The notes: generated by a model from the letters alone, not told the origin. Positions 34,178 through 49,896 are shown, counted from the first letter of the stretch. The stretch: DNA of 64,000 bases from Candidatus Rokuibacteriota bacterium (GCA_016200085.1 JACQFL010000036.1:124001-188000); one strand, 5' to 3'. Made by a program: numbers and translations.

Positions 34178-35275
34178 TCACGGCACGCGAACGAAGCCTT
34201 CCATCAACCGGCGCGCCGTGCGGTAGACCGTCACGCGCTCGGCGAACGGCGCGCCTTCGCGCGTGGTGACCGTGGCGGCGATGGGGAGCACGCCCGATGG
34301 ATGGCCCAGGCGCACGTCGCCCACGCGCGAGGCGCACGCCTCGCTCACCACGGTGCCGCCGATGCGCGCCGCGACGGCCAGGCACATCGCCGCGGTCAGC
34401 GCGAAGGCGCGGTGGCAGTTGCCCATCGACATCACGCGCGCCACCAGGTCGACCGCGTCGGGCGCGTAGGCGATGCCGTCGAGCGCCGTGAACGCGGCCG
34501 GCGGGGCGACGAGCGCGATCTTCGGCACCGCGGTGCTGCCGGTCAGCCCCATGCGGGCGCCGGCTTCCACGCGCAGCGCCTCCAGGCGCTCGGTGAGCGC
34601 GCGGTCGGCGTCGATCTGCTGAGGCGTCTCCGTGCCCGTGAGCCCGAGATCGCGCGCGCGGACGAAGACGAGGGCGTTGGTGGCATCGACGAGGGAGGCC
34701 TCCAGGCCCCCGAGCGTCTCCCGCGTCTGCCCCGTGGGCAGCAGCCGGCCGGTGCCCGCGCCGCCGGGCTCGAGGAAGTCGAGCGCGATGCGCGCCCCCT
34801 TGCCGGGAACGCCGGCCAGCTCGAAGTCGCCCTCGACGGCGGCCTCGCCATCCCGCACGGGCACGTGGGCGACGATGATCTTCCTCGTGTTGGTGTTGTG
34901 GATGCGCACGACCGTCTCCGGCGCGACGGCGTCGACGAGCTTCTCGTCGATGGCGAACGGCCCGACGGCGGAGGAGCAGTTGCCGCAGTTGCCGCGGTAG
35001 TCGACCACGGGCGTGCGGACGTCCACCTGCGCGAACGTGTAGTCGACGTCGGCGTCCGGGTGGCTGGGCGGGCCGATGATGCAGGCCTTGGAGAGCGACG
35101 AGATGCCGCCGCCGAGGCCGTTCAGCTGGCGGCCGTAGGGGTCCGGGCTGCCGAGGGCGAGCGAGAGGATCCGATCGCGCTCCGGCCCCGCCTTCGGCAG
35201 GTCCTCCTCGTGGAAGAAGACGCCGCGGCTGGTGCCGCCCCGCATGTAGACCGCGCGCACGCGCCGCTGGGTCAT
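34178..35275 (-). CDS. prpF: PrpF-family isomerase (AcnD-accessory/4-oxalomesaconate tautomerase-like)
   Basis: 365 residues from ATG 35275, overlapping the aconitase stop (ATGA). YMRGGTSRGVFF near residues 10-21 is the PrpF signature; NGLGGGISSLSKACII near 50 and GNCGNCSSAVGPFAI near 95 carry the two active-site Cys region of this diaminopimelate epimerase-like fold. PrpF isomerises trans- and cis-aconitate or 2-methylaconitate, helping an aconitase that makes the trans form. Coupling with the aconitase gene fits that role. Confidence 0.9.
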   Translation of the reverse strand: MTQRRVRAVYMRGGTSRGVFFHEEDLPKAGPERDRILSLALGSPDPYGRQLNGLGGGISSLSKACIIGPPSHPDADVDYTFAQVDVRTPVVDYRGNCGNCSSAVGPFAIDEKLVDAVAPETVVRIHNTNTRKIIVAHVPVRDGEAAVEGDFELAGVPGKGARIALDFLEPGGAGTGRLLPTGQTRETLGGLEASLVDATNALVFVRARDLGLTGTETPQQIDADRALTERLEALRVEAGARMGLTGSTAVPKIALVAPPAAFTALDGIAYAPDAVDLVARVMSMGNCHRAFALTAAMCLAVAARIGGTVVSEACASRVGDVRLGHPSGVLPIAATVTTREGAPFAERVTVYRTARRLMEGFVRVP

Positions 35276-37263
35276 TGTAACGGTGCCCTCCTGCCCGGCT
35301 CGGACCGCGGGTGGCGTGCCGCGGGTGCGGCCTGGCTCCGTTGTTCCTGCTGTTGTCTGGTCAGGGCGAGGATCCCGCCCGACAATAATATCTCGCGCTC
35401 GCGCGGGGTGAGCACGCACGAGGCCGTGAACGTGGCCCCCGTCCTGGTGTTGACGACCTGCACGCGCGCGCCGGCCTCGAGCGACGAGCGCAGGTGCTCG
35501 AGGCGCAGCGGGTCGTCACGCTCGATCGTCTCCCACGCGGCCGGGTCGTCGAAGGTGAGCGGCACGATGCCCCAGTTGATCAGGTTGGCGCGGTGGATCC
35601 GCGCGAAGGACTTCACGATGACCGCGCGCACCCCGAGGTACATGGGCGCGACGGCCGCGGACTCCCGCGAGGAGCCCTGGCCATAGATCTCGCCGCCGAC
35701 GATGACGCCGCGCCCGGCCGCCCGGGCCCGGGCCACGAAGTCCGGGTCCGTGTTCTTGAAGGAGAACTCGGCGATGGCGGGCACGTTGGAGCGGAACATC
35801 AGCACGGCGGCGCCGGCGGGGGAGATGGCGTCGGTCGAGACCTTGTCGCCGAGCTTGATGAGCACCGGCGCCTCGAGGGTCTCGGCCACCGGCTCGCCGA
35901 TCGGCGCGGGCTTGATGTTCGGCCCGCGCGTGACCTCGCCCTCGTGGTCGGGCGCCACGAAGCCGACGTCCGTGGTGGCGAACTTCGCCGGCAGCGCGAC
36001 GGGCGTCTCGGCCCCGAGCGTGCGCGGGTCGGTGATCACCCCCGTGAGCGCAGAAGCCGCCGCGGTCACCGAGGAGCAGAGGTAGATCTCGTCGTCCTTC
36101 ACCCCGCTGCGCCCGGGGAAGTTGCGGTTGAACGCGCGCAGGCTCTTCGTCCCCGCGGCGGGAACGTGGCCGATGCCGGCGCACGCGCCGCACGAGGGTT
36201 CCGAGACGAGCGCGCCGGCGGCGAGGAGATCGGCGAACAGGCCCTCGCGCGCCATGGTCTCGAGGATCCGGTGGCTGCCGGGGAAGAGCACGAAGGACAC
36301 GGACGGATGCACGCGCTTGCCGCGCAGCACCCCGGCGACGGAAGACATGTCGTGCCACGAGCCGTTGGTGCAGGAGCCGACCATCACCTGCTCGACGACG
36401 GTGCCCGCCACCTCGCCGACGGGCACGACGCGGTCGGGCGAGCCGGGCAGCGCGACCAGGGGCTCGATGGCGTCGAGATCGAGCTCGATCTGGTCGTCGT
36501 ACGTCGCGTCGTCGTCGGCCACCGCGGGCCGCCAGTCGTCGGGCCGGCCGAGCCGCGCGAGGAACGACTTGGTCACGTGATCGCTCGGGAACACGCTGCT
36601 CGTCAGGGTCAGCTCGGCGCCCATGTTGGCGATCGTCATCCTCTGGGCGGCGAGCAGGGTCGCCACGCCCGGGCCCGCGTACTCGAAGATCTTGCCGCTG
36701 CCGCCGCGCACGCTCAGCCGCCGCAGCAATTCGAGGATGACGTCCTTGGCCGTGACCCACGGCCGGAGCGCGCCGGTGAGCCACACGCGCACGACCGCGG
36801 GCATGGTGAAGAAGTAGGGCCCGCCGCCCATCGCCACCGCCACGTCGAGGCCGCCGGCGCCGATCGCCAGCATGCCCGCCGCGCCGCAGAGCACGGTGTG
36901 GCTGTCGCAGCCGAGCAGGCTCTGGCCCGGAATGGAGAAGGTCTCCATGTGCACCTGGTGGCAGATGCCGTTGCCCGGTTTGGAGAAGGTCGCGCCGTAC
37001 TTGCGCGAGGCGGTCTGGAGGTAGCGGTGGTCGTCGGAGTTGCGCGAGTCCACCTGGAAGACCTGGTGATCGATGTAGCTCACCACGCGGCCCGGGACCA
37101 CCCGCGGGAAGCCGAGCGCCTCGAACTGCAGCCAGGCCTGGGTGCCGTTGGTGTCGGTGAGCAGGACCTGGTCCACGGAGATCCCGACTTCCTCGCCGGC
37201 GACCGGCTTGCCGGCGACGAGGTGGCTCTCGATGAGCTTTTGCGTCAGGCTGCGTCCCGCCAC
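35272..37263 (-). CDS. Aconitate hydratase
   Basis: 663 residues from GTG 37263. Fe-S cluster cysteines in VGSCTNGSW near 302 and SEPSCGACAGIG near 360; swivel domain with GEIYGQGSSRESAAVAPMYL near 549. Size and order resemble the compact Aquifex-type aconitases. The conserved part ends around LLSGGILALTRQQ; the final 25 residues are encoded by dispersed repeat R copy 3. Isomerises citrate or methylcitrate-derived tricarboxylates. Coupled to prpF. Confidence 0.92.
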   Translation of the reverse strand: MAGRSLTQKLIESHLVAGKPVAGEEVGISVDQVLLTDTNGTQAWLQFEALGFPRVVPGRVVSYIDHQVFQVDSRNSDDHRYLQTASRKYGATFSKPGNGICHQVHMETFSIPGQSLLGCDSHTVLCGAAGMLAIGAGGLDVAVAMGGGPYFFTMPAVVRVWLTGALRPWVTAKDVILELLRRLSVRGGSGKIFEYAGPGVATLLAAQRMTIANMGAELTLTSSVFPSDHVTKSFLARLGRPDDWRPAVADDDATYDDQIELDLDAIEPLVALPGSPDRVVPVGEVAGTVVEQVMVGSCTNGSWHDMSSVAGVLRGKRVHPSVSFVLFPGSHRILETMAREGLFADLLAAGALVSEPSCGACAGIGHVPAAGTKSLRAFNRNFPGRSGVKDDEIYLCSSVTAAASALTGVITDPRTLGAETPVALPAKFATTDVGFVAPDHEGEVTRGPNIKPAPIGEPVAETLEAPVLIKLGDKVSTDAISPAGAAVLMFRSNVPAIAEFSFKNTDPDFVARARAAGRGVIVGGEIYGQGSSRESAAVAPMYLGVRAVIVKSFARIHRANLINWGIVPLTFDDPAAWETIERDDPLRLEHLRSSLEAGARVQVVNTRTGATFTASCVLTPREREILLSGGILALTRQQQEQRSQAAPAARHPRSEPGRRAPLQ
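35274..35340. repeat. Dispersed intergenic repeat R, copy 3 (within the aconitase 3' end)
   Basis: ATTGTA, 15 bases, then CCGGCTCGGACCGCGGGTGG, CGTGCCGCGGGTGCGG and CCTGGCTCCG on the plus strand. Unlike the other copies it is read as the last codons of the aconitase gene, and its ATTGTA end supplies the prpF start codon and the aconitase stop. Confidence 0.75.
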
Positions 37264-37309
37264 GGACCCTCGCTGGTGAGCATTCGCGCCGCTGCGCGTC
37301 GCGTTACGA

Positions 37310-37321
37310 CGGTATATACCG
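37310..37321. promoter_or_regulatory. Perfect 12-bp palindrome upstream of aconitase
   Basis: CGGTATATACCG, 47 bases before the aconitase GTG. Could be an operator or contain a -10 (TATACC/TATATA). It lies between the acn-prpF pair and the 3' end of the biosynthetic operon at 37358. Confidence 0.4.
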
Positions 37322-37357
37322 GTGGATCAGCGGGCGCAAGCGCGGCCCGCGCGCCGC

Positions 37358-38425
37358 TCAGCGCGCAGGCGGGGCGACGGCGAAGACGTCGCCGAGCGGC
37401 CGCCGCGGCGCGCGGGGGGGTGGCGGGGCGACGCCGACGCGCACGAGGCTGGCCGGGACCTCGCCCGGCTGGAGCAGGAACACCGCCTCGATCTCACGCT
37501 GTGCCGCCTCCAGCAGACGGCGCTGACCGGCGTCGAAGTCCCCGGGGCACACCCGGTGACGCAGCACGAGGAGGACGATCGCGGTCAGCGGGTGGAACGC
37601 GAGACCGCGCGCGGCCGCCACCAGCCAGAGCCGCTGCATCAGGCGTCCAGCCTCCACCCAGCGCTCGGGCGTATCGTCACGGGCGACGAGCAGGCCGAAC
37701 GCCCCGGAGCGGCGGAGATTCGTGCCGGATCGGAAGCGGACGAAGCGGGCGAACCCGACCGCGTTCGCCGCCCGGGCCACCGGCCAGCGCGCGACGGCTC
37801 GGAGCATGGTCTGCTCGAGGCGCCCGATCCCCAGGGTCCCCAGCGGCAGGCCGTCCCGCCGCGCCGCGCTCTCGCCCTGGCTCCAGCGCAGCCACCGCAC
37901 GAGGCCCGCGTGCAGCTCGTGGTGGGCGAAGAGCAGCTGCTCGTTCACCGCGGCCGCCCGCGCGGCGCGCGCGATGCCGTCCGGGTCCTCGGTCCATCGC
38001 ACGGTCACGCCGGCCGCCTGCACGGCGAGGAGGTCGTCTCGCGCGCCCGGCGGCCACGGCGCGTCGCGGTAGGGCGCCCGATTCGTGCAGCGCCGCGCGA
38101 GCGCCGCCTGCAAGGGATGCGGCGTCGGCACCGCGCGCTCGACCCGCACCTGCGCGACGACGTCGGCGTCGTGGCCGTGCGGGAAGACCTCGGGGGCCAG
38201 GCTGAGGCCCGCGGGGCCCGCCGCGACGTCCATGTTCTCGAGTGCGGCGCCGAGCGCCATCCAGCTCCCACGGTGAGCGACGTCGAGCAGGGACGCCGCC
38301 CGCGGCCGGTCGAAGAGCACGCTCAGGCCGTGGCCGTCCCAGGCGAAGCGCCAGGGCTGGCAGTTGTTGCCCGACGGGGCGGCGACCGCGGCCTCCACCA
38401 GGCAGCGCACGGCGGAGGCGTGCAT
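37358..38425 (-). CDS. Acg-like nitroreductase-fold protein, copy 1
   Basis: 355 residues from ATG 38425. SGNNCQPWRFAWDG near 18-31 and RRCTNRAPY near 111 are the FMN-site and dimer-interface motifs of the Acg/Rv3131 branch of the nitroreductase superfamily; GAFGLLVARDDTPERWVEAG near 239 and MQRLWLVAAARGLAFHPLTA near 260 complete the pattern. Members bind FMN and may be redox enzymes or flavin-storage proteins. Last gene of the nine-gene operon; paralogue of 41531-42628. Confidence 0.82.
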   Translation of the reverse strand: MHASAVRCLVEAAVAAPSGNNCQPWRFAWDGHGLSVLFDRPRAASLLDVAHRGSWMALGAALENMDVAAGPAGLSLAPEVFPHGHDADVVAQVRVERAVPTPHPLQAALARRCTNRAPYRDAPWPPGARDDLLAVQAAGVTVRWTEDPDGIARAARAAAVNEQLLFAHHELHAGLVRWLRWSQGESAARRDGLPLGTLGIGRLEQTMLRAVARWPVARAANAVGFARFVRFRSGTNLRRSGAFGLLVARDDTPERWVEAGRLMQRLWLVAAARGLAFHPLTAIVLLVLRHRVCPGDFDAGQRRLLEAAQREIEAVFLLQPGEVPASLVRVGVAPPPPRAPRRPLGDVFAVAPPAR

Positions 38426-38437
38426 CGACCGTCCCCG

Positions 38438-39748
38438 CTACCGCCGGCGGCCGCGCCCGCCGAGGACGACGGGCTCGCCGGCGGTGAGTCCGCTCAGCAC
38501 TTCCACGTGGACGTCGTCGCGCGCGCCGAGCCGGACGTGGCGCGACTCGATGCCCCGCGCGCCGGCGACCCGGAGCGTCGCCTCGACCGCGCCATCGGGC
38601 ACGAGGATGCGCGGCACGAGCAGCACCGCGTCCTTGTGGGCGACCACGATCCTGACGTCCACCGTCATGCCGAGCTTCAGGTCCTGGGCGCCTTCGAGGA
38701 CGTCGATCTTCGTCTCGAGCACTTTCATGTCCTGGATCCGAGCGGGGTCGTCGGGCCGGACCTTCCGCTTGCCGACCGCCTGGCCGATGTCGGCGACCCG
38801 GCCGGGAAAGACGCGGCCGGGGTAGGCGTCGGCCGTGATCTCCACGGTCTGGCCGACGGCCAGCTTGCCGACGTCCGTCTCGTCGACCTCGGCTCGGACG
38901 CGAGTCTGGGCGACGTCGGCGAGCACGAGCAGGGGCATCCCGATGTTCACCGCCTCGCCGGGCTCCACCATGCGCTTGGTCACCCGCCCGGTGACCGTGC
39001 TCCGGACCACCATGTTCGCGAGCACGGCGCGCGCGTGCTCCAGTGCCGCCCGCGCCAGGGCCACCTGGCTCTCGGCCCGCCCGAGCTCGGCCTGGGCCTG
39101 CCGCACGCCCGCCCACGCGGCCTGCACGGTCTCCGGCTTCGGTCCGGCGAGCACCAGGTCCAGCGCCTCGCGTGCCGAGCGCGCCCGCGTCATCGCCACC
39201 TCGGCCTCGGTGTCGGCGGCGTCGAACTGCGAGCGCGCGACGTGGCCCTCGTCGACGAGCCGGCGGAACCGCTCACGCTCGCGCCCGGCGAGGCTGGCGC
39301 GACGCTCGGCCTGCTGGACATCGGCGCGGGCCCGCTCGATCTCCTGGGGTCGCGCCCCGCTCTTGACCTCCGTCCAGCGGGCCTCCGCCGTCTCGAGGGC
39401 GCGCTCGGCGAGCCCCACGCCGGCCTCCGCGGTGCGCACGCTGGCCTCGGCCATCGCGACCTGCGCGGCGAGCTCCGCATCGTCGAAGAGCACCAACGCC
39501 TGTCCCTCGGTGATCGTGTCGCCCTCCTCGACCGCCACCTGCTTGATCCGTCCGGGGACCTTGTTGGCGAGGACGATCTCGGTGAGGGGCTCCACGCGAC
39601 CGGTGGCGACGACGACCTGGTGGATGCTGCCCGCGACGGCTGCCGTCGTGGGCTCGCTCCGCCACGGCGTCCAGGCGCCGATGCTCAGCGCAGCCCCGGC
39701 GGCGAGGAGGAGCAGTGGCGCGACGGTCCAGCGAGTCCGGCGGCTCAT
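38438..39748 (-). CDS. Membrane-fusion adaptor, DevB/HlyD family
   Basis: 436 residues from ATG 39748, overlapping the ATPase stop. One N-terminal membrane helix (WTVAPLLLLAAGAALSIGAW), then the first lipoyl half (GRIKQVAVEEGDTITEGQAL near 76), a long alpha-hairpin coiled coil (residues about 95-225), the second lipoyl half (VTGRVTKRMVEPGEAVNIGM near 242) and beta-barrel and membrane-proximal domains. Periplasmic bridge of a three-part exporter with 39745-41534; the combination looks like cyanobacterial DevBCA, which exports glycolipids. Confidence 0.9.
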   Translation of the reverse strand: MSRRTRWTVAPLLLLAAGAALSIGAWTPWRSEPTTAAVAGSIHQVVVATGRVEPLTEIVLANKVPGRIKQVAVEEGDTITEGQALVLFDDAELAAQVAMAEASVRTAEAGVGLAERALETAEARWTEVKSGARPQEIERARADVQQAERRASLAGRERERFRRLVDEGHVARSQFDAADTEAEVAMTRARSAREALDLVLAGPKPETVQAAWAGVRQAQAELGRAESQVALARAALEHARAVLANMVVRSTVTGRVTKRMVEPGEAVNIGMPLLVLADVAQTRVRAEVDETDVGKLAVGQTVEITADAYPGRVFPGRVADIGQAVGKRKVRPDDPARIQDMKVLETKIDVLEGAQDLKLGMTVDVRIVVAHKDAVLLVPRILVPDGAVEATLRVAGARGIESRHVRLGARDDVHVEVLSGLTAGEPVVLGGRGRRR

Positions 39749-40413
39749 GCCACCAGCCGGCCGTCCTCGAGCAGCACCGTCCGGTCCACCCACGGCGCGA
39801 CCCGGTGATCGTGGGTGACGATGACCACCGACCGCCCCTGCGCGGCCGCCTCGCGCAGCAGGCGCATGACTTGCTCGCCGTTGCTCGCGTCGAGGTTGGC
39901 GGTCGGCTCGTCGGCGAGGATGAGCGGGGGATCCCCGGCGAGCGCCCGCGCGATCGACACGCGCTGCTTCTCGCCGCCCGAGAGGTCGCGCGGGCGGAAG
40001 TCGAGCCGGGGCGCCAGCCCCACCCGCTCGAGCAGCCGGCCCGCCTCCCGGCGCGCCGCGCGGCCGTCGAGGCCCTTGAGGTTGAGCACGACCTCGACGT
40101 TCTCCGCCGCGGTGAGGGCGGGAAAGAGGTTGAAGCTCTGGAAGATGAAGCCCACGTAGCGCCGTCGCAGGCGCGGCAGGTCCCGCTCGTCGGAGTCCCA
40201 GACGCGCTGGCCGTCGATCGTCACCGTGCCGGTCGTCGGTCGCAGGATGCAGCCGAGCATCGACAGCAACGTCGTCTTTCCGCTGCCCGATGGGCCCATG
40301 ACGGCGACGATCTCACCCGCCGCCGTCGCCAGGCTCGCGTCCCGCACCGCCACCACGTCGGTGGTCGCCTCCCGGTAGACCTTGGTCAGCGCGGTGGCCT
40401 CGATCGTCGTCAT
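39745..40413 (-). CDS. Exporter ATP-binding subunit, DevA/LolD/MacB type
   Basis: 222 residues from ATG 40413. Walker A GPSGSGKTTLL near 40, Q-loop GFIFQSFNLFPALTAAENVE near 88, signature LSGGEKQRV near 139 and Walker B LILADEPTANLD near 160, the wording specific to the LolD/MacB/DevA branch. Supplies ATP energy to the FtsX-type permease upstream. Overlaps both neighbours by 4 bases. Confidence 0.93.
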   Translation of the reverse strand: MTTIEATALTKVYREATTDVVAVRDASLATAAGEIVAVMGPSGSGKTTLLSMLGCILRPTTGTVTIDGQRVWDSDERDLPRLRRRYVGFIFQSFNLFPALTAAENVEVVLNLKGLDGRAARREAGRLLERVGLAPRLDFRPRDLSGGEKQRVSIARALAGDPPLILADEPTANLDASNGEQVMRLLREAAAQGRSVVIVTHDHRVAPWVDRTVLLEDGRLVA

Positions 40414-41534
40414 GCGCGGAACACCATGACCGGATCGACCTGCAGCGCCTTGCGCACGGAGATGACCGCGGCGCCCAGGCACATGGCGACGGCGACGATG
40501 AAGACGGCGAGCATCACCGGCGGGCGCACGACCATGACGACACCGGTCAGCGACGAGGAGTGCACCGCCAGCAGGGTGATGAGCAGCCCGGCGGCATACC
40601 CGACGACGGCGTTGATCACCGCCTGCTCGACGATGATCCCGTAGACCATGCGGTTGGTGGCGCCGATCGCCTTGAGGGTGCCGAACTCCCGGAGGTGCTC
40701 GATGGTGGCCGTGTAGATCGTCTGCGCCACCACGACGGTGCCCACGACGACCGCCATCAGCGCGGTCAGGGCGAAGCCGACGCCGAGGCCGGTCTGCAAG
40801 GTCCAGTACAGGCGCGTCTTCAGGCTGTACTCGTCGCGCGTGTGCACGTCGAGGTACGGCAGCGCGCGCAGCCGCTCGGCGACCTGGCTTGGGTCGTGAC
40901 CGGGGACGACGCGCGCCACGATGAACACCGTCCGGTCGCGGAACCGGGGGTCGACCTCGCGCGCGGTGCGCAGGGAGGTGAAGACGTAGGGCGCCGTCGT
41001 GAAGCCGCGCACGCCCCGGCTGATCCCCACCACGCGCAGCCGCGTCTCGTCCACCTCGACGAGGTCGCCGACGCGCAGCGCGCCGAGCTTGGGGAAGGCC
41101 GACTCGTCCACGATGAGCCCGTGGCCGGCCTTGAGCGCCTGGACCGAGCCCTCGACGAGCTGCCAGGGCCCGCCGACCCCGGTGTGAGGGTTGAAGCCGA
41201 TGAGCTCCACCGCCTCGGAGCCGCCGTCGGCGAGGCGCATGCTGAGCCACGTCAGGATGAGGTAGTCGGCGTCCGCGACCCCGGGGACCTCCTTGACCTT
41301 GGCGAGTCGCCGCTCGTCGAAGGCCAGCGGGAAGTCGAAGTTCGCCGAGCTCTTCGAGGTGATCCAGATCTCGGCGTCGGTGTTGTCGATGATGATCGAG
41401 GCGTTCTCGATGAAGCCGAGGTAGATGCCGACCTGGGCGAAGATCAGGACCACGGAGAACGTCACGCCCACCACCGTGATGAGGAAGCGCGTGCGGTCGT
41501 GGAAGAGGTTCTTCCGCGCGATGTCGACGCTCAC
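40410..41534 (-). CDS. Exporter permease, DevC-like (FtsX/MacB fold)
   Basis: 374 residues from GTG 41534 (GTGA overlap). First membrane helix at about 17-40, a large periplasmic domain (41-250) starting IIIDNTDAEIWITSKSSANF, then three helices (about 250-365) with the FtsX motif EHLREFGTLKAIGATNRM near 278. The N-terminal ARKNLFHDRTRFLITVVGV is the DevC pattern. Mechanotransmission permease of a lipid or small-molecule exporter. Confidence 0.9.
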   Translation of the reverse strand: MSVDIARKNLFHDRTRFLITVVGVTFSVVLIFAQVGIYLGFIENASIIIDNTDAEIWITSKSSANFDFPLAFDERRLAKVKEVPGVADADYLILTWLSMRLADGGSEAVELIGFNPHTGVGGPWQLVEGSVQALKAGHGLIVDESAFPKLGALRVGDLVEVDETRLRVVGISRGVRGFTTAPYVFTSLRTAREVDPRFRDRTVFIVARVVPGHDPSQVAERLRALPYLDVHTRDEYSLKTRLYWTLQTGLGVGFALTALMAVVVGTVVVAQTIYTATIEHLREFGTLKAIGATNRMVYGIIVEQAVINAVVGYAAGLLITLLAVHSSSLTGVVMVVRPPVMLAVFIVAVAMCLGAAVISVRKALQVDPVMVFRA

Positions 41535-42628
41535 GCCGTCACCTCGGGCGCCTCCACCCGCGCGCGGGTCACGACCGCGTGCAGCGGACGCCGCCCGGTG
41601 CGGCCGCCGGGCGCCGGCGCGACGCCGAAGCGCAGCAACGCCGCCACGCGGCGACCGCCCAGCTCGGGAAGCGCCGCGGCGAGCTCGCTCGTGAGCGTCG
41701 CCGCGGAGGCGCACGCCGCGTCCGACAGCACGCCGTGGCGCGCCGCGCTCGCGAGCACGGGCAGCGACATCATCGGCTGGGCCGAGAGTCCGCGCGCGGT
41801 GAGCGCGAGCCAGGCCCGCTGCATCGCGCGGCCGACCTGGACGTCCCTGGCGGCGGCGTCGTCCGCGGCGGCCACCACGCAGACGCCCGAGGCGCTCCGC
41901 ACGAGGCGTCGCGCCCTCGCGGCGAGCAGGCGCGCCGGGCCGGCTCGCCGAACCACGAAGTCCGGCAGGCGTCCCATCACCCGGAGCGCCAGCCCCTCCG
42001 CCGCCGACGCCTCGATGGCTCCCAGCGAGAGCCCGTCCTCGACGGGCGCCTCGGCAGGCGCGTCGAACCTGACGCTGGCCACGAACGCCCGCCGCATGGC
42101 GCCCTCGCCGAACATCACGCCGTCGGCGCATCCGATGAGGCCGGCGAGCCGCGCGAGACGGGCGGCGCCCCCGATCCAGTGCGTCCCGACCTCGCCGATC
42201 GGCGACGTCTCGGCGGCCAGCTCCGCCAGCACGGCGGGGGCGAGCGCGCGGGCGTCGTACGGCCGGCGATTCGTCGTGCGCGCGGCGATCTCGTCCGGCG
42301 GCGGCCCCGGCGTTCCGGGGCCCTCGAGGCGGATGACGGCCGTCAGCGCGGTGCCGGGCGCCAGCTCGGCGCGCCAGCCAGCCGCCGCGGCGGCGTGCAG
42401 GAGGTTCTCGAGCGCGGCGCCGAGCGCGAGGCGGGCCATCCGCTGACCGGCATTCATCGGTGACCGGTCCCGGAGAACGTCGAGACAGAGGGCGACGAGC
42501 CCGGCCTCGTCGTCGACGATGAACCGCCAGGGCTGGGTGTTGTCCCCGGAGGGCGCGCGGATCGCCGAGGCGAGCAGCGCGTCCAGCCCGCTCGCCGCGG
42601 GGCTACGACGTGGCGCGGACGGCGTCAC
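41531..42628 (-). CDS. Acg-like nitroreductase-fold protein, copy 2
   Basis: 365 residues from GTG 42628, overlapping the thiF-like 3' end by 26 bases; the frame stays open further upstream but is not homologous there. RAPSGDNTQPWRFIVDD near 24-40, RTTNRRPYDARALA near 120, VGRAMQRAWLALTARGLSAQ near 285. About 30% similar by eye to 37358-38425. In this operon it directly follows the E1-like gene, mirroring single proteins (such as the mycobacterial Rv1355c/MoeY type, from memory) that fuse an E1-like domain to a nitroreductase domain. Confidence 0.82.
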   Translation of the reverse strand: MTPSAPRRSPAASGLDALLASAIRAPSGDNTQPWRFIVDDEAGLVALCLDVLRDRSPMNAGQRMARLALGAALENLLHAAAAAGWRAELAPGTALTAVIRLEGPGTPGPPPDEIAARTTNRRPYDARALAPAVLAELAAETSPIGEVGTHWIGGAARLARLAGLIGCADGVMFGEGAMRRAFVASVRFDAPAEAPVEDGLSLGAIEASAAEGLALRVMGRLPDFVVRRAGPARLLAARARRLVRSASGVCVVAAADDAAARDVQVGRAMQRAWLALTARGLSAQPMMSLPVLASAARHGVLSDAACASAATLTSELAAALPELGGRRVAALLRFGVAPAPGGRTGRRPLHAVVTRARVEAPEVTA

Positions 42629-43517
42629 GGAGCTCGGGACTGGTGCGCAGCACCCACCACTTCTTCGCCCGCTGGAGGGGATGGCGGTTGCCGCGCGCGA
42701 GGCGGCCGGTCTTGTACGTCTGGGCGAGGGCGTCGAACTGGAAGTAGTGCGGCGCCGCACGCACGGGCCGCCGGCGGAGCACGAGGTTGGCCACCTCGCT
42801 GGCCACGATCCCGGCCGTCAGGAAGCATCCGGGCGCCAGGGACGGCGCCCGCCGGGCGGAGACGTCGACGGCGGAGGACGGGAAGTACGACTTGTGGGCC
42901 CGCTTGGGCGCCAGCCCGAGGGCGAAGTTGAGCAGCTGCTCGCCGAGGCCCATGCCCTCGCGGAAGTCGAAGTACTCGTCGAAGGCCATGCCGTCCGGCG
43001 CGAAGACGTGCAGGGTGGCGCCGAAGCCGACGGGCGCGGCGGTGAGCGCGTGGACGCCGCGGCCGCGCGCGGCGCGGAAGAGCAGGCGGCGCGCCGCCAT
43101 GTTGAAGAAATCGATGCCGTCGATGGCGGCCACGGCGCCGTCGAGGAAGGCGGCCACGTTGTCCCCGGCGAGGCCCGCGGGGAAGAGCCGCAGGTCCACC
43201 GCTGGGTTGATCGCGGCCGCCATCTCCGCCATCACCTCGACCTTCGGCCGTCCGAGGGTCTCGATCGTGGCGCCGGCCTGGCGGTTCATGTTCGCCAGCT
43301 CGAAGCGATCGAAATCGGCCAGCGCGAAGCCGCCGATGCCGAGCCGGACCAGCGCGAGCACGTAGGCGCCGCCCACGCCGCCCAGGCCCGCGATGGCAAC
43401 CCGGGCGCGCCGCAGCCGCGCCTGCTCCTCGCCGGTGACGAGCCCCAGGTTGCGCGAGAACGCCTCGGCGTAGTCGAAGGCGGCGCCGAACGCGGGCCGG
43501 TCACGCGCTGGCGACAT
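42603..43517 (-). CDS. ThiF/E1-like adenylyltransferase
   Basis: 304 residues from ATG 43517. Nucleotide-binding GLGGVGG at 44-50, Asp68/Asp70 in ALADFD, the conserved MNRQ at 77-80 with the catalytic Arg, and Lys92 in GRPK, all hallmarks of ThiF/MoeB/E1 enzymes that adenylate a carboxylate. No paired CxxC zinc motifs are present, unlike MoeB or ThiF, and no ThiS/MoaD-like partner is nearby, so its substrate is probably a small molecule or the carrier-bound product of the neighbouring genes. Overlaps its neighbours at both ends. Confidence 0.88.
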   Translation of the reverse strand: MSPARDRPAFGAAFDYAEAFSRNLGLVTGEEQARLRRARVAIAGLGGVGGAYVLALVRLGIGGFALADFDRFELANMNRQAGATIETLGRPKVEVMAEMAAAINPAVDLRLFPAGLAGDNVAAFLDGAVAAIDGIDFFNMAARRLLFRAARGRGVHALTAAPVGFGATLHVFAPDGMAFDEYFDFREGMGLGEQLLNFALGLAPKRAHKSYFPSSAVDVSARRAPSLAPGCFLTAGIVASEVANLVLRRRPVRAAPHYFQFDALAQTYKTGRLARGNRHPLQRAKKWWVLRTSPELRDAVRATS

Positions 43518-44409
43518 GTCGCGTCCTCGATTCGCGGGCCAGGCCGTGGAGGATCGCCCCAAGCTCGTCCGCCGTCGCGCTCGCGAGGACGTCGTGGCCG
43601 GCGAACAGCCGGGCGAAGCGGTCGAACGGATCCTCGGCCCGGCGGGCATCGCGCCGCAGCGCCGCCCGCCCGGCGGCCACGTGGGCGGGACCGAAGAAGA
43701 AATCGTGCGGGAGGCCGAGGCTCGTCCGGCCCTGGCTCAGCATGGCGATCCAGTGCCGGGCCGCCCCGACGTCGAAGCGCAGCGCCACCGCGGGCGCCCC
43801 GTTGACCTTACGGTAGTCCCGGCGCTCGCCGAGCGGCGAGAAGCGAAGGAATTCCAGATAGAAATCCACGTGGTGCGGGTTGACGGCCACGCAGGTGTCG
43901 TCGACGCCCGCCTGCTCGGCCGCGATGATCGCGAGCCGCACCATTCGCACGATGATCGCGACGCCCGCCGCCCGGTAGGCGGGGTCGAGGGCGAAGGCGG
44001 AGACCTCGGCGATCGCGCGCGCCTGGCGCCGCAGGCCGTCGAGCTCGACGCCGTAGATCTCGTCCATCGGCAGCCGGAGGGGCGAGTCCGGGATGAGGGT
44101 CAGCGTTCCGACGACGCGCCGGGCGTCGGCGGCGACGAAGACGCGCGTCGACGGCAGCGCGTGCTGCAGGGAGAGCCGGCGGCCCGTCGGGTGCCGGCTC
44201 ATGTAGCCGTGCGCGACGTACTGGTCGTGCACCAGCCGCAGGGCCGCGGCCACCTCGTCCGTGCTCGCCGCCGGCCGGACCTGCAGCGAGGAGGGCAGCG
44301 CCTCGGGCGCGTGCCAGGCCGGGCGCGGTCGCGGGCGCGCGCGCCCCGTCGCCGGTGCCGGGGATCCGTCGGCGGTGATGCCGACGCCGGCGGGGTCGAG
44401 GGGGCCCAT
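43501..44409 (-). CDS. FeeM-type N-acyl amino acid synthase
   Basis: 302 residues from ATG 44409. After a Pro/Ala-rich 40-residue lead, VRPAASTDEVAAALRLVHDQ (44-63), STRVFVAADARRVVGTLTLI (87-106), PDSP and LRRQARAIAEVSAFALDP (127-144) match the FeeM catalytic core, a GNAT-like relative of LuxI synthases. FeeM takes a fatty acyl group from an acyl carrier protein and joins it to an amino acid such as tyrosine. The ACP gene lies 17 bases upstream, as feeL pairs with feeM. A C-terminal helical extension (about 220-302) has no assigned role. Confidence 0.85.
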   Translation of the reverse strand: MGPLDPAGVGITADGSPAPATGRARPRPRPAWHAPEALPSSLQVRPAASTDEVAAALRLVHDQYVAHGYMSRHPTGRRLSLQHALPSTRVFVAADARRVVGTLTLIPDSPLRLPMDEIYGVELDGLRRQARAIAEVSAFALDPAYRAAGVAIIVRMVRLAIIAAEQAGVDDTCVAVNPHHVDFYLEFLRFSPLGERRDYRKVNGAPAVALRFDVGAARHWIAMLSQGRTSLGLPHDFFFGPAHVAAGRAALRRDARRAEDPFDRFARLFAGHDVLASATADELGAILHGLARESRTRHVASA

Positions 44410-44426
44410 CGTCCGCCGCCCGGCCG

Positions 44427-44687
44427 TCAGACCGTGACGCCCTGCTCGCTGCGCAGCCGCTCCAGGAGCGCCACGACCTCCGCCACCGTGCCGACGTCGC
44501 GCAGGGCGTCCTCCTCGATCGAGATACCGAACTCGCGCTCCATCTGGATGGCGAGCTCCACGGCGTCGAGCGAGTCCATCTCGAGGTCCTCGACGAGCCG
44601 GGCGTCGCTCGTGATCGCTTCGGCGGGCAGGCCGAGGCGCTCGGTGAGGATGCTCTTCACCTGGGTGTCCAGCTCCATGGTCGTCAT
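44427..44687 (-). CDS. Acyl carrier protein
   Basis: 86 residues. LVEDLEMDSLDAVELAIQME (31-50) carries the phosphopantetheine Ser39 in the DSL motif; length and acidity are standard for an ACP. Not next to the usual fabD/fabG genes, so it is probably dedicated to this pathway. It would present the acyl chain to the FeeM-like synthase, as FeeL does. Confidence 0.95.
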   Translation of the reverse strand: MTTMELDTQVKSILTERLGLPAEAITSDARLVEDLEMDSLDAVELAIQMEREFGISIEEDALRDVGTVAEVVALLERLRSEQGVTV

Positions 44688-44718
44688 CGTCTGTCTCCCT
44701 GGCTGGCCGGTGTGGCGT

Positions 44719-45948
44719 TCACTCGGACGCCCGCCGCAGCACGAGCGTCGCGTTCATCCCGCCGAAGGCGAACGAGTTCGAGAGCGCGACCCGCACCGCG
44801 GCCGGCCGCGCGTGGCCGGGGACGACGTCGAGGTCGCACGCGGGGTCGGGGGTACGGTAGTTGATCGTCGGCGGCAGCAGCCCGCGCTCGATGGCCAGCG
44901 CCGTGGCGATGGCCTCCACCGCGCCGGCCGCGCCGATGAGGTGGCCGGTCATCGACTTGGTGGAGCTCACCGCGAGGCGGCGGGCGTGCGGTCCGAACGC
45001 CGCCTTGATGGCCGCCGTCTCGTTGGCGTCGTTGTGCGGCGTCGACGTGCCGTGGGCGTTGATGTAGTCGACGTCTTCCGGGCGTACTCCGGCGTCCGCC
45101 AGGGCGAGCCGCATGCCGCGGGCGGCGCCCTCGGTCGAGGAGGCCGTCAGGTGGTGCGCGTCAGCCGTCATCGCGTAGCCGACGACCTCGGCGTACACGT
45201 GCGCGCCCCGCGCGCGGGCCGCCTCGAGATCCTCGAGCACCACCATGCCCGCGCCCTCGGCGAGCACGAAGCCGTCGCGGTCCCGGTCGAACGGGCGGCT
45301 CGCCGTCGCGGGGTCGTCGTTGCGCGTCGAGAGCGCGCGCAGCGCGCCGAAGCAGGCGATGACGAGCGGCGTGAGCAGGGCGTCGGCGCCGCCCGCGAGC
45401 ATCGCGTCGGCGTCACCGCGCTGGACGAGCCGGAAGGCGTCGCCGATCGCCTGGGTGCCTGCCGCGCACGCCGTCGTCGGCGCCGCGATCGGGCCGCGCG
45501 CGCCGGTGCGCATCGAGACCCATCCGGCCGCCATGTTCGGCAGGCAGCCGGGCAGCGCGTACGGGCTCAGAGCCGCCGGGCCCTCGGCGCGCAGCGTGCC
45601 GTCGGTCGCGAGGATCAGCGGGATGCCGCCGAAACCGGTGCCGACGCTCACGCCGACGCGCTCGGGCTGGCGCTCGATGTCGAGCTTGCTGTCGCCGAGC
45701 GCTTCCTGCGCGGCGACGAGGGCGTACTGGATGAAGGTGTCGGTGCGGACGACGTCGCGGCGTGGCAGGTGGTCCGTGGGCGTGAAGCCCTTCACCTCCG
45801 CGGCGATCCGCGTCGGCAGGCCCGAGGCGTCGAAGCGCGTGATCGGCCCGACGCCGTTCGTGCCCGCGGCCAGCGCGGCCCAGAAGGTCTCCGTGCCGAT
45901 CCCGATGGGGGTGACGGCCCCGAGCCCCGTGATTCCCACACGTCGCAT
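44719..45948 (-). CDS. fabF: Beta-ketoacyl-ACP synthase II (FabF-type ketosynthase)
   Basis: 409 residues from ATG 45948, preceded by GGGGGGAGAG. Catalytic Cys161 in PTTACAAGTQAIGDA, His in NAHGTSTPHND near 300 and KSMTGHLIGAAG near 335, and the C-terminal NSFAFGGMNATL. Elongates ACP-bound acyl chains. As first gene of the operon with an ACP and an N-acyltransferase it is probably a pathway-specific ketosynthase rather than the housekeeping copy. The longer upstream frame is not homologous. Confidence 0.93.
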   Translation of the reverse strand: MRRVGITGLGAVTPIGIGTETFWAALAAGTNGVGPITRFDASGLPTRIAAEVKGFTPTDHLPRRDVVRTDTFIQYALVAAQEALGDSKLDIERQPERVGVSVGTGFGGIPLILATDGTLRAEGPAALSPYALPGCLPNMAAGWVSMRTGARGPIAAPTTACAAGTQAIGDAFRLVQRGDADAMLAGGADALLTPLVIACFGALRALSTRNDDPATASRPFDRDRDGFVLAEGAGMVVLEDLEAARARGAHVYAEVVGYAMTADAHHLTASSTEGAARGMRLALADAGVRPEDVDYINAHGTSTPHNDANETAAIKAAFGPHARRLAVSSTKSMTGHLIGAAGAVEAIATALAIERGLLPPTINYRTPDPACDLDVVPGHARPAAVRVALSNSFAFGGMNATLVLRRASE

Positions 45949-46258
45949 GTCTCTCCCCCCGGCCCACCGGTGCCGCCACGGGCCGATCCTGGGTCCGCCG
46001 GATTCCGGCAGGCGTGAGGTGGGGTGCAAAAAATGTGACACCCCTCGGGCACCGGCGCCAAGCGCGCGCCAGCGCTCAGGAAAACTAAGGGTGGCGAATA
46101 TCGGGGCCCGGGGACAGGGCGGAGGAACCGCGGAACAGTGACGAATTGCGGCATGTGGAGAGAGCCAGGTTGACATTTTTTGGCGGCGCGCCTCGCGCAC
46201 CGCCAGGGGAAGGAATCGCGCCGGCGCGACGCGAGTCGCAGCCCGCGCGAGGAGGGGG
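45949..46258. other. Intergenic control region upstream of the ketosynthase operon
   Basis: 310 bp with no gene. It holds a GGGGTG-N12-CACCCC hairpin at 46021-46044, an A-tract element CAAAAAATGTGACA (46027-46040) and its inverted relative TTGACATTTTTTGG (46170-46183), and a run of imperfect GC palindromes near 46185-46250. The citrate synthase stop at 46259 closes the region, so the operon promoter must lie here. Confidence 0.6.
46025..46040 (-). promoter_or_regulatory. Candidate sigma-54-like promoter of the ketosynthase operon
   Basis: Minus strand TGTCAC-ATTTT-TTGCA matches the TGGCAC-N5-TTGCA consensus except for one of the two invariant G bases at -24. Predicted start is about 65 bases before the ATG, leaving room for the GGGGGGAGAG ribosome site. 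The -24 mismatch makes it uncertain. Confidence 0.35.
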
Positions 46259-47389
46259 CTACCGCTTCTCCAGCGCCATCCAGGCCCGCCGCGTGGGCCC
46301 GATGTACTCCCCGCGCGGCCGGATCAGCCGGTTGTCGTCGTGCTGCTCGACGATGTTCGCGGACCAGCCGGCGATGCGCCCGGCCGCGATCACCGGCGTG
46401 AAGAGGTCCACGGGGATGCCCAGCGAGTAGAAGAGCGGCGCGGAGTAGAAGTCCACGTTGGGGATGAGCCCCTTGGCCTTGTTGATGCGGTCGTGGAGCG
46501 CCACCGCCATCTCGTACCACTTGAACTGGCCCGACTGGCGGCAGGCGTCCTCGGCCATGCCGCGCAGGATGGCCGCGCGCGGATCGCCCGCCTTGTAGAC
46601 GCGATGGCCGAATCCCATGAGCCGGCGCTTCTCGGCCAGCGCCTTCTCGGTGAAGGCGTCGACGTTGGCGACCTCGCCGATCTCCATCAGCGTGCGCATC
46701 ACCGCCTCGCCCGCGCCGCCGTGCAGCGGCCCCTTCAGGGCGCCCACGCCACCGGCCACGGCCGAGTGCATGTCGGACTGGGTGGAGACGATGACCCGCG
46801 TGGTGAAGGTCGAGGCGTTGAGCTCGTGCTCGGCGTAGAGCGTCAGGCTCCCGTCGAAGGCCTTGGTGACGACGGGGGAAGGGCGCTGGCCGGTGAGCAT
46901 GTAGAGGAAGTTGGCCGCGTGCCCGAGCGTGGTGGCCGGGGCGATCGGCTCCTGGCCGCTCCGGATCCGATGATGCGCGCAGATCGCCGTGGCCATCTGG
47001 CTGGTCAGCCGCGCCGCCTTGCGCACGTTCGCCTCGTGGGAGTTGTCGGTCGTCTCGGGATCGGACATCCCGAGGATAGCCACGGCCGCCTGCAGCGCGC
47101 GCATGGGATCGGTGTCCTTCGGCATGAGGCGAAAGGCGTCGACGAGCGCGGACGGGATCGGCCGCGCGGCGATCAGCTCGACCGAGAGCCGGTCGAGCTG
47201 GCCGGGCTTCGGCAGCTCGCCCCGCCACAGCAGGTAGCAGACCTCCTCGAAGGTCGCCTGGCGCGCAAGGTCGGCGATGTCGTAGCCGCGGTAGGCCAGA
47301 CGTCCGTTGGCGCCGTCCAGATCGCAGAGCTGGGTCTCGGCGGCGACGACGCCCTCGAGACCGCGGATGAGCGCACTCGACTCCGTCAT
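46259..47389 (-). CDS. Citrate synthase
   Basis: 376 residues from ATG 47389. TQLCDLDGANGRLAYRGYDI near 18, AEHELNASTFTTRV near 190, GFGHRVYKAGDPRA near 263 and NVDFYSAPLFYSLGIP near 317 provide the two active-site His and the Asp. Second citrate synthase of the window; more canonical than 3928-5073, without its insertion. It could be the 2-methylcitrate or the TCA-cycle enzyme. Followed downstream by the intergenic control region. Confidence 0.92.
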   Translation of the reverse strand: MTESSALIRGLEGVVAAETQLCDLDGANGRLAYRGYDIADLARQATFEEVCYLLWRGELPKPGQLDRLSVELIAARPIPSALVDAFRLMPKDTDPMRALQAAVAILGMSDPETTDNSHEANVRKAARLTSQMATAICAHHRIRSGQEPIAPATTLGHAANFLYMLTGQRPSPVVTKAFDGSLTLYAEHELNASTFTTRVIVSTQSDMHSAVAGGVGALKGPLHGGAGEAVMRTLMEIGEVANVDAFTEKALAEKRRLMGFGHRVYKAGDPRAAILRGMAEDACRQSGQFKWYEMAVALHDRINKAKGLIPNVDFYSAPLFYSLGIPVDLFTPVIAAGRIAGWSANIVEQHDDNRLIRPRGEYIGPTRRAWMALEKR

Positions 47390-47411
47390 GGCTCGGCCTC
47401 CCGACTGTCTC

Positions 47412-48194
47412 CTACCGCAGGCTGGCGTTGTTCGTGGTGATGGTGAGGCCGGCGTCGACGACGAGGGTCTGGCCGGTGACCCAGCGGGCCTCGTCGCTGG
47501 CGAGGTAGACGGCGGCCCAGCCGACGTCCCAGCCCTCGCCCTCGGTCCCGAGCGGCGTGGCCGCGCGGCGGCGCTCGCGCGCGGCCTCGCCCAGGCCCGC
47601 GACCATCGGCGTCCACACTGCGCCGGGGGCGATGGCGTTCACGCGGATGCCCTTGGGGCCGAGCTGCGCGGCGACGCTGCGGACGAAGCCGATCACCCCC
47701 GCCTTGGCCGTCGCGTACGCCGTGCGGCCGTGGCCGCGCATCGCCGCGACCGACGAGACGCACGTGACGGAGCCGCGTCCACGCTCGGCCATCACGAGGG
47801 CGGCGGCCCTGGTGGCGAGGAACATCGATTTCAGATCAACGGTCATCACCCGGTCCCAGTCCTCTTCCGTCGTGTCGAAGAGATCGTGGCGGGACTCGAT
47901 GCCGACGTTGTTGTGCAGGATGTCGAGGGCGCCCCAGCGGCCGACCGCGGCGGCGACCATCTCGCGGCAATCGGCGGCGCGCGTGACGTCGGCGGCAACG
48001 GCCTCGGCCTCGCCGCCTTCCGCGCGGATGAGGCCGACGGTCTCCTCGGCGCGCTCCTTGGCGAGATCCACGCAGAGCACGCGCGCGCCCTCGCGCGCGA
48101 AGAGGATGGCCGTGGCCTTGCCGTTGCCGAGCCCAGGCCCGCGCGAGCCGGCGCCCGTGACGATCGCCACCTTGCCCCCGAGCCGCCCGGCCAT
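47412..48194 (-). CDS. Short-chain dehydrogenase/reductase
   Basis: 260 residues from ATG 48194. Cofactor loop TGAGSRGPGLGNGKAT near 14-29, DVTRAAD near 67, NNVG near 92, catalytic Ser in CVSSVAAM near 141 and YATAKAGVIG near 155. The glycine loop is longer than usual. Reduces or oxidises a carbonyl or alcohol; a 3-oxoacyl or polyol substrate is likely. The ThDP enzyme gene lies 20 bases upstream on the same strand, so the products may be consecutive steps. Confidence 0.9.
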   Translation of the reverse strand: MAGRLGGKVAIVTGAGSRGPGLGNGKATAILFAREGARVLCVDLAKERAEETVGLIRAEGGEAEAVAADVTRAADCREMVAAAVGRWGALDILHNNVGIESRHDLFDTTEEDWDRVMTVDLKSMFLATRAAALVMAERGRGSVTCVSSVAAMRGHGRTAYATAKAGVIGFVRSVAAQLGPKGIRVNAIAPGAVWTPMVAGLGEAARERRRAATPLGTEGEGWDVGWAAVYLASDEARWVTGQTLVVDAGLTITTNNASLR

Positions 48195-48213
48195 GGCCCG
48201 CCGCTCCGGCGGC

Positions 48214-49896
48214 CTACTTGAACGCGGGGTCGATGCGGACGTCGAGGAGGTACGGCGCCCCGCTGGCCAGCCCGCGGCCGAGCGCGGCGGCGACGTCGCC
48301 CGCCTTCTCCACGCGCTCGCCGCCGACCCCGAGGGACTTCGCGAGCCCCACGAAGTCGATGTGCGGCCGCTCGAGGTCCATGCCGACGTAGCGGTCGTCC
48401 TCGGCCGAGAAGCCCTTGAGGGCGAGCGTGCGCTCCTTGAGGATCCGGTACGACGCGTTGTTGAAAATGACGTAGACGATGGCCAGCCGCTCGTGGGCGG
48501 CCGTCCACAGCGCCTGGCACGTGTACATGGCGCTGCCGTCGCCGATGAGGGCGACCACCGGCCGCTGGGGCAGCGCGAGCTTGACGCCGACGGCGGCGGG
48601 CAGGCCCCAGCCGATGCCGCCGCCGCGGAGGCCGAAGAAGCTCTTGGCGTCGCGGCAGCGGAAGAGATCGCGCACGCCGGGCGCGGACGAGATCGACTCG
48701 TCCACGATCGTCGCTTCCTCGGGCGTGGCCGAGGCCAGCGCGTGCACGAGGGCCAGCGGCGACATCGGGACCTCCCGCGCCCCGCGCGCGGCGCGGTCGA
48801 CGAGGTCCTGCCGCATCTGCTCGCCCGCGGCGCGCACGGCGTCGCGGCGCTGCGCGGCCTGAGCATGCCCGCTCTTGCCCGTGAGACGGCGAACCGCCTC
48901 GCTCAGCTCGGGCAGCGTGGCCTTGGGGTCGCCCTGGATGGCCACCCGGGCCGCGTAGTTCTTGCCGAGCTCCCAGGGATCGACGTCGAGGTGAACGATC
49001 GTCACGTCGTGGGGCATGGGCTCGACGTCCGACGGCAGGGATAGCGTGAAGAGGTCGCCGCCGACGGAGAAGAGCAGGTCGTGGCGCATCAGGAGCGCGC
49101 GGATCCCCGGCGCGACGCGCGGCATCCCCCCGGCGCACTGCGGGTGGGTGAACGGGAAGCTGCACGTGCTCGCCACGCCCTCCGAGCGGACGGGGCAGCC
49201 GATCAGCTCGGCCAGCTCGATGAGCTCGGCGATGGCGTCGCCATGGGCCACGCAGTCGCCGGCCACGATGAGCGGGCGCTCCGCCCTGGCGAGCAGGGCC
49301 GCGGCTTCCTGGACGGCGGCCCGGTCGCCGACCATCCGGCGCGCGATGCGCGTGGCGGCGCCGAGGTCGATGTCGCGCTCGGCGTTCAGCACGTCGACGG
49401 GCAGCGAGAGGAAGACGGGGCCGGTGGGATACGCCATCGCGGTCTTGGTGGCGCGCCGCACGATCCGGGGCAGGTCCTCGAGCCGTCGCGCCTCCGTCGA
49501 CCACTTCACGAAGGGCCGCGCGATGGGGGGAAGATCGGACCAGAGGATCGGCTCCGTGGTGGTGAAGGACTGGTCGTGCTGCCCTGCGGTCAGCAGCATC
49601 GGCGCGCCGGACTTCTGGGCGTCGTAGAGCATGCCCATGGCGTTGCCGAGGCCGGGCGAGACGTGGACGTTGACGGCGCCGAGCCCGCCGCTCGCCTGGG
49701 CATACGCGTCGGTCATCGCGATGGCGGCCGCCTCCTGCAGCGCCAGCACGTAGCGGATGCCGGGCTCGCGCGCCAGGCCGTCCATGAGCGGCAGCTCGGT
49801 GGTGCCCGGGTTGCCGAACATGACGGAGACGCCTTCCTGCCTCAGGATCTCGAGGAACGCTTGCTTGCCAGACGTGAAGGGCATGGCGCGGATCAT
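48214..49896 (-). CDS. ThDP-dependent decarboxylase/lyase, benzoylformate decarboxylase-like
   Basis: 560 residues from ATG 49896 (ATG 49884 is equally possible). N-terminal pyrimidine-binding domain with the catalytic Glu in FGNPGTTELPLM near residue 26; central domain; C-terminal pyrophosphate-binding domain with GDGSAMYTCQALWTAAHERL near 432 and VIFNNASY completing the GDG-X-NN motif. Ends DVRIDPAFK. Acts on a 2-oxo acid, giving an aldehyde or acyloin. Distinct from anabolic acetolactate synthase by its context with an SDR rather than ilvN. Confidence 0.88.
   Translation of the reverse strand: MIRAMPFTSGKQAFLEILRQEGVSVMFGNPGTTELPLMDGLAREPGIRYVLALQEAAAIAMTDAYAQASGGLGAVNVHVSPGLGNAMGMLYDAQKSGAPMLLTAGQHDQSFTTTEPILWSDLPPIARPFVKWSTEARRLEDLPRIVRRATKTAMAYPTGPVFLSLPVDVLNAERDIDLGAATRIARRMVGDRAAVQEAAALLARAERPLIVAGDCVAHGDAIAELIELAELIGCPVRSEGVASTCSFPFTHPQCAGGMPRVAPGIRALLMRHDLLFSVGGDLFTLSLPSDVEPMPHDVTIVHLDVDPWELGKNYAARVAIQGDPKATLPELSEAVRRLTGKSGHAQAAQRRDAVRAAGEQMRQDLVDRAARGAREVPMSPLALVHALASATPEEATIVDESISSAPGVRDLFRCRDAKSFFGLRGGGIGWGLPAAVGVKLALPQRPVVALIGDGSAMYTCQALWTAAHERLAIVYVIFNNASYRILKERTLALKGFSAEDDRYVGMDLERPHIDFVGLAKSLGVGGERVEKAGDVAAALGRGLASGAPYLLDVRIDPAFK

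Follow-up and report, generated by a model that had tools for sequence, protein, structure and literature searches.

The reactions leading to bacterial acyl-oxazolones, namely, acylation, ATP-dependent cyclisation, and O2-dependent desaturation, have been shown by others for OxzAB, TyzABC, and TrzAS (PMC10404671, PMC12856293). TyzABC of Mycobacterium tuberculosis (Rv2336, Rv2338c, and Rv2337c) consists of a separate FeeM-fold acyltransferase, ThiF cyclase, and Acg-type oxidase, and the genes of the cyclase and oxidase are adjacent and unfused (PMC10404671). TrzAS (Rv1356c and Rv1355c) and OxzAB of Pseudoalteromonas rubra perform the same reactions with the same domain set, with the cyclase and oxidase fused in TrzS and OxzB; the fusion protein Rv1355c is TrzS, an oxazolone synthetase (PMC10404671, PMC12856293). 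In Thalassotalea, Massilia kyonggiensis, and Stieleria, an N-acyl amino acid synthase (NAS) gene lies beside separate ThiF and nitroreductase genes in operon-like order with overlaps, and open-chain dehydrotyrosines are the known products (PMC12479983). The biological purpose of bacterial acyl-oxazolones is a major unresolved question for the field (PMC12856293).

The window analysed here, a stretch of 64,000 nucleotides from Candidatus Rokuibacteriota bacterium (GCA_016200085.1, JACQFL010000036.1:124001-188000), encodes a FeeM-type acyltransferase, a ThiF cyclase, and an Acg-type oxidase in overlapping succession. The E1/ThiF-like protein (E1) and the adjoining flavin-dependent oxidase (FDO1) probably serve as cyclase and desaturase in a pathway to an acyl-oxazolone (N-acyl-azlactone), encoded by an operon of nine genes acquired horizontally. 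As in TyzABC, the cyclase and oxidase genes are adjacent and unfused, and they correspond to the two halves of TrzS and OxzB, where the domains are fused. The locus differs from TyzABC in that TyzA takes acyl-CoA and tyzA lies on the opposite strand; an ACP, a FabF, a second oxidase, and an ABC exporter are not described for TyzABC, although mmpL9 is nearby. An exporter is likewise not described for TrzAS and OxzAB, and neither an exporter nor a second oxidase is reported for the Thalassotalea, Massilia, and Stieleria loci (PMC12479983). Since TyzB/TyzC and Zoogloea-type loci are already split, the two-gene form was dropped as a novelty. The new content is the assembly, i.e., a dedicated ACP/KAS pair, an exporter, and a second oxidase in one gained island.

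The cyclase and oxidase genes

The E1 gene (42603..43517, minus strand; OxzB-N/TyzB/TrzS-N type) runs from an ATG at 43517 to a TAG at 42603 and encodes 304 aa, while the FDO1 gene (41531..42628, minus strand; TyzC type) runs from a GTG at 42628 to a TGA at 41531 and encodes 365 aa; neither contains internal stops. The two genes overlap by exactly 26 bases, which agrees with the initial annotation. The interval 41531-43517 given there was right and covers two genes of the nine-gene unit. As the homologues keep 50 invariant columns, the pair is not a chance open reading frame.

Family assignments were made with Pfam and NCBIfam models. E1 matched ThiF (PF00899, 135.6 bits) and FDO1 matched nitroreductase (PF00881, 38-39 bits). 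E1 passed the cut-off of PRK08223 (365.5 bits; cut-off 266) and aligned to the ThiF part of PRK14851, a ThiF-oxidase fusion family, and of PRK14852, an acyltransferase-ThiF-oxidase fusion family. FDO1 aligned to the oxidase halves of PRK14851, PRK14852, and the Rv1355c family (PRK07877, C-terminal half). The proposal that the pair is a split form of an Rv1355c-type fusion was therefore borne out, with E1 and FDO1 matching the halves of PRK07877, PRK14851, and PRK14852. In the natural triple fusion PRK14852, FeeM matched the N-terminus, E1 the middle, and FDO1 and the second oxidase, FDO2, the C-terminus. Because FeeM, E1, and FDO1 each fit one segment, the three neighbours represent three parts of one natural fusion.

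The residues expected of an adenylating enzyme were followed through 13 homologues, as the initial annotation had suggested. G44, G46, G47, V48, G49, R79, Q80, and K92 were invariant, and D136 was conserved in at least 90%. A phmmer alignment to E. coli ThiF placed R79, K92, and D136 opposite its Arg, Lys, and Asp, D136 being a presumed equivalent. Along with the GxGGxG motif, E1 retains these three residues, which serve ATP-dependent adenylation. An AlphaFold2 model of E1 (pLDDT 85.5) showed a ThiF fold, with ThiF 1ZUD as the best match (E 1.6e-16), followed by AclA (9EGB), the nearest non-canonical E1 structure, for which a literature search found no paper.

FDO1 and FDO2 scored 149 and 183 bits against the Acg family NF047509, both below its cut-off of 199. 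FDO1 also matched the Acg structure 2YMV. The FDO2 model (pLDDT 80.7) had Acg (2YMV, E 1.2e-15) as its best PDB match; with their scores under the cut-off, the FDO oxidases are thus related to the Acg family without being strict members. Judging by its match to the Rv1355c oxidase half, FDO1 would be an FDO-A rather than an FDO-B. It retains the conserved Arg and Gln positions, which are candidate equivalents of TrzS Arg540 and Gln651. FDO2 shares 33% identity with FDO1. At the 'QP' motif position, Gln is present in FDO1 and all other homologues and His in FDO2 alone, and FDO2 may accordingly have a different activity from FDO1.

A nine-gene island between citrate synthase and aconitase

The nine genes occupy 37358-45948, all on the minus strand. 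Upstream of E1 are a FabF (beta-ketoacyl-ACP synthase II; 44719..45948; TIGR03150, 574 bits, over the cut-off), an acyl carrier protein (44427..44687; PF00550, 52 bits), and a FeeM-type N-acyl amino acid synthase (43501..44409; PF21926, 145 bits against a cut-off of 27), which aligned to the FeeM structure 2G0B with an E value of 3.8e-15. FeeM of an uncultured soil bacterium (2G0B) belongs to the same acyltransferase family at low sequence identity; it is ACP-dependent, and the adjacent ACP gene suggests the same for the island enzyme. Downstream of FDO1 are a MacB-like ABC permease (MacB_PCD and FtsX in Pfam; 40410..41534), an ABC transporter ATPase (39745..40413; PF00005, 116.6 bits), a membrane fusion protein of the HlyD/MacA/DevB-like type (38438..39748; PF16576, TIGR01730), and FDO2 (37358..38425; PRK07877, 172 bits). 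These flanking FeeM/ACP/FabF and exporter genes, absent from the initial annotation, give the pathway.

Intergenic distances are short throughout. In the first half, FabF-ACP and ACP-FeeM are separated by 31 and 17 bases, and FeeM-E1 and E1-FDO1 overlap by 17 and 26 bases. In the second half, FDO1-permease, permease-ATPase, and ATPase-fusion protein each overlap by 4 bases (GTGA for the first, ATGA for the other two), and 12 bases separate the fusion protein gene from FDO2. By this structure, the nine genes are inferred to form one transcription unit. The gap of ~310 bp between citrate synthase and FabF contains a terminator-like hairpin (46037..46053, minus strand; 1 found vs 0.2 expected).

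FeeM has a single copy in the genome, and a genome search placed the two Acg-type (NF047509) oxidases solely in the island. Two other fabF genes over the cut-off were found on C52 and C6, each adjoined by an additional ACP; thus, the island FabF/ACP pair is an extra one, and the idea that these were the sole copies in the genome was dropped.

The island (37264..46258, minus strand) lies exactly between citrate synthase (46259..47389, minus strand; TIGR01800; 76-85% identity and synteny in 8 relatives) and aconitase (35272..37263, minus strand; PF00330; with matches, largely at 70-82% identity, in 48 of the 56 genomes of the family), both native and outside the pathway. In all eight relatives examined from the same family, heme genes, a TPP enzyme, (an SDR), citrate synthase, aconitase, and PrpF follow in this order, some of the relatives' stretches stopping short of the heme genes. 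Citrate synthase and aconitase adjoin in these relatives, with a spacing of a few to ~200 bases, and the island genes are absent. As the edges of the island are those of the operon, all nine genes are jointly absent from the relatives' site. Among 95 genomes from the phylum, a single one had an E1 family member over the cut-off. Because of the exact insertion at a junction that is closed in 8/8 relatives and this rarity in the phylum, the island is a gained, self-contained cassette. Its GC and GC3 match the flanks; thus, the gain was not very recent, or the donor genome was similar. A search for mobile-element signs found no tRNA in the window, and none of the repeats listed pairs the island edges.

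A connection between the product and the genes for citrate synthase, aconitase, and PrpF was considered and dropped, since relatives that lack the island have these genes side by side. The type II citrate synthase, aconitase, and PrpF are a conserved block in the relatives (34178-37263 and 46259-49896 in the window), with the TPP enzyme and SDR upstream, and may belong to a methylcitrate-type pathway rather than being the main TCA genes.

Related loci in other bacteria

The nearest E1 proteins, at 40-51% identity, are from Alpha-, Beta-, and Gammaproteobacteria and a Parachlamydia MAG. The fusion mapping proposed initially was carried out on these loci. E1 is fused to the oxidase at L009, L010, L014, and L017, split and adjacent at L012, L013, and L018 (Zoogloea) and at L016, and split and divergent at L015. 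No oxidase was found in the fetched stretches of L011, L020, and L019, the last being incomplete. The acyltransferases are mostly of the exosortase-associated type TIGR03694 (over the cut-off at L009, L010, L012, and L017); that of L015 is FeeM, and L020 has a GNAT acyltransferase directly upstream whose FeeM match is below the threshold. These varied neighbours indicate one cyclase-oxidase module combined with different acyltransferases. In a poorly resolved E1 tree, the fused and split forms were interspersed, and the E1 of the window paired with that of Methylobacter (L011) with a support of 83/80, which is not strong. An OEP/ABC/fusion-protein set is encoded at the Methylobacter locus, along with a PEP-CTERM protein.

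Several further observations were made on these loci. In Proteobacteria, the cyclase-oxidase module lies beside TIGR03694 acyltransferases (the four loci above and possibly L020 and L011). Together with the PEP-CTERM protein of L011, these neighbours connect PEP-CTERM loci with oxazolone-type chemistry. A literature search found no paper stating this; the single one to combine oxazolone and exosortase had, judging by its title, another subject. In Zoogloea (L012:6877-7695), a further ordinary nitroreductase (PF00881) lies beside the exosortase-associated acyltransferase. In the Parachlamydia MAG (L016), the split oxidase-E1 pair adjoins a PF01553-type acyltransferase, not a FeeM-type one, and the pair in this chlamydial bin could be genuine or mis-binned.

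Proposed pathway and alternative readings

Three features of the locus agree with the described oxazolone systems. The N-acyltransferase gene adjoins and overlaps the cyclase gene, the ThiF-type cyclase has intact adenylation residues and falls outside the ThiF/MoeB families, and an Acg-type oxidase gene is adjacent to the cyclase gene. Judging from characterised homologues, the chemistry in the Candidatus Rokuibacteriota host is inferred to proceed as follows. FeeM would use the acyl chain to N-acylate an amino acid, most likely an aromatic one, the sequence specifying neither the residue nor the chain length. E1 would then adenylate the carboxylate with ATP; the amide oxygen would attack it, and the five-membered oxazolone ring would form without a sulfur carrier. 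FDO1 would subsequently desaturate the Calpha-Cbeta bond using O2. From gene order, FabF and ACP may supply a dedicated fatty-acyl-ACP at the start, the MacB-type permease, ATPase, and membrane fusion protein may export the product, and FDO2 may perform a second oxidation or act on another substrate.

The own acyl supply, second desaturase, and exporter point to a secreted product. None of the known oxazolone clusters found has an exporter of its own, and export of this product thus lacks support from precedent. A more specific version is speculative and rather unlikely: the island would make a new, doubly oxidised acyl-oxazolone, with FDO2 introducing another unsaturation or targeting the acyl chain, and would secrete it through the dedicated MacAB-like exporter to act outside the cell. 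If true, the island would be the first example of an oxazolone system made for export. The compact, self-contained operon allows the secreted-product idea to be tested. Moreover, the putative pathway is extended to a lineage with one positive among 95 sampled genomes, and it moves as a cassette.

One alternative concerns the product. The same enzymes could yield an open-chain N-acyl-2,3-dehydroamino acid of the stieleriacine, thalassotalic acid, or kyonggic acid type, with the oxazolone being a transient that is hydrolysed before the acid is exported. The Stieleria, Thalassotalea, and Massilia producers have the same trio of NAS, ThiF, and nitroreductase, and the oxazolone was not found there (PMC12479983); oxazolones are readily hydrolysed (PMC12856293), and a soluble acid suits an exporter of the ABC/membrane-fusion-protein kind. 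However, the oxazolones that TyzB/TyzC and TrzS yield with this domain set are sufficiently stable in cells. We consider the open-chain product unlikely, although sequence does not decide between an oxazolone and the opened dehydro acid (PMC12479983) as the final product.

Under the acyl-oxazolone reading, the transporter and FDO2 are parts of the pathway, but they could instead have been merely co-transferred and serve another function, e.g., the handling of lipoproteins or drug efflux. Transporters of the MacB/FtsX type are common and have broad roles, and OxzAB, TyzABC, and TrzAS do without one. Nevertheless, overlaps of 4 bases join the transporter genes to FDO1 and to one another, and the set is enclosed by the two oxidases within the island. 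Moreover, the E1 of Methylobacter, the nearest partner in the tree with the modest support given above, is likewise near an outer-membrane/ABC/fusion-protein set. A separate function is accordingly judged quite unlikely.

A role of E1 as a true activating enzyme for a sulfur carrier or ubiquitin-like protein, with an unrelated nitroreductase and an incidental overlap, is very improbable. E1 shares its fold and adenylation residues with E. coli ThiF/MoeB, its model is nearest to ThiF, and the genome encodes seven ThiS/MoaD-like proteins. However, E1 scored 52-81 bits against true ThiF/MoeB models with cut-offs of 152-449, far below all of them, and passed the cut-off of PRK08223 instead. The refuting outcome named initially, best matches to genuine ThiF or MoeB with a sulfur-carrier partner elsewhere in the genome, thus did not occur. 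As the initial annotation had noted, E1 has no CxxC zinc pairs, with a single Cys in 304 aa. No ThiS/MoaD gene is present in the operon; the seven found in the genome lie on other contigs. In addition, E1 is recurrently fused or adjacent to an oxidase. Since the genome has its own rhodanese-MoeB-type E1 with CxxC (L001) and the seven carrier-like proteins, sulfur-carrier activation is provided for without the island E1. A role of E1 in thiamine or molybdopterin synthesis, doubted from the outset, is thus unlikely, and a sulfur-carrier role is strongly disfavoured; on the scores, the missing CxxC, and the separate MoeB-type gene, it was ruled out as a candidate.

An assembly chimera with the island from a contaminant, to which the single positive genome in the phylum might point, is scarcely credible. 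The island is flanked on either side by native syntenic genes within a contig of at least 188 kb, its composition matches the flanks, the estimated contamination is 0.33%, and its FeeM is 39-47% identical to the relatives' FeeM vs 32% to that of Roseateles.

As a separate observation, four loci of relatives in the same family (L062, L064, L065, and L067) encode FeeM homologues without E1 or the oxidase. In these loci, the gene immediately downstream of the FeeM homologue encodes a membrane histidine kinase (5TM-5TMR_LYT, PAS, and HisKA), and an N-acyl amino acid is perhaps made and sensed by the two as a pair.
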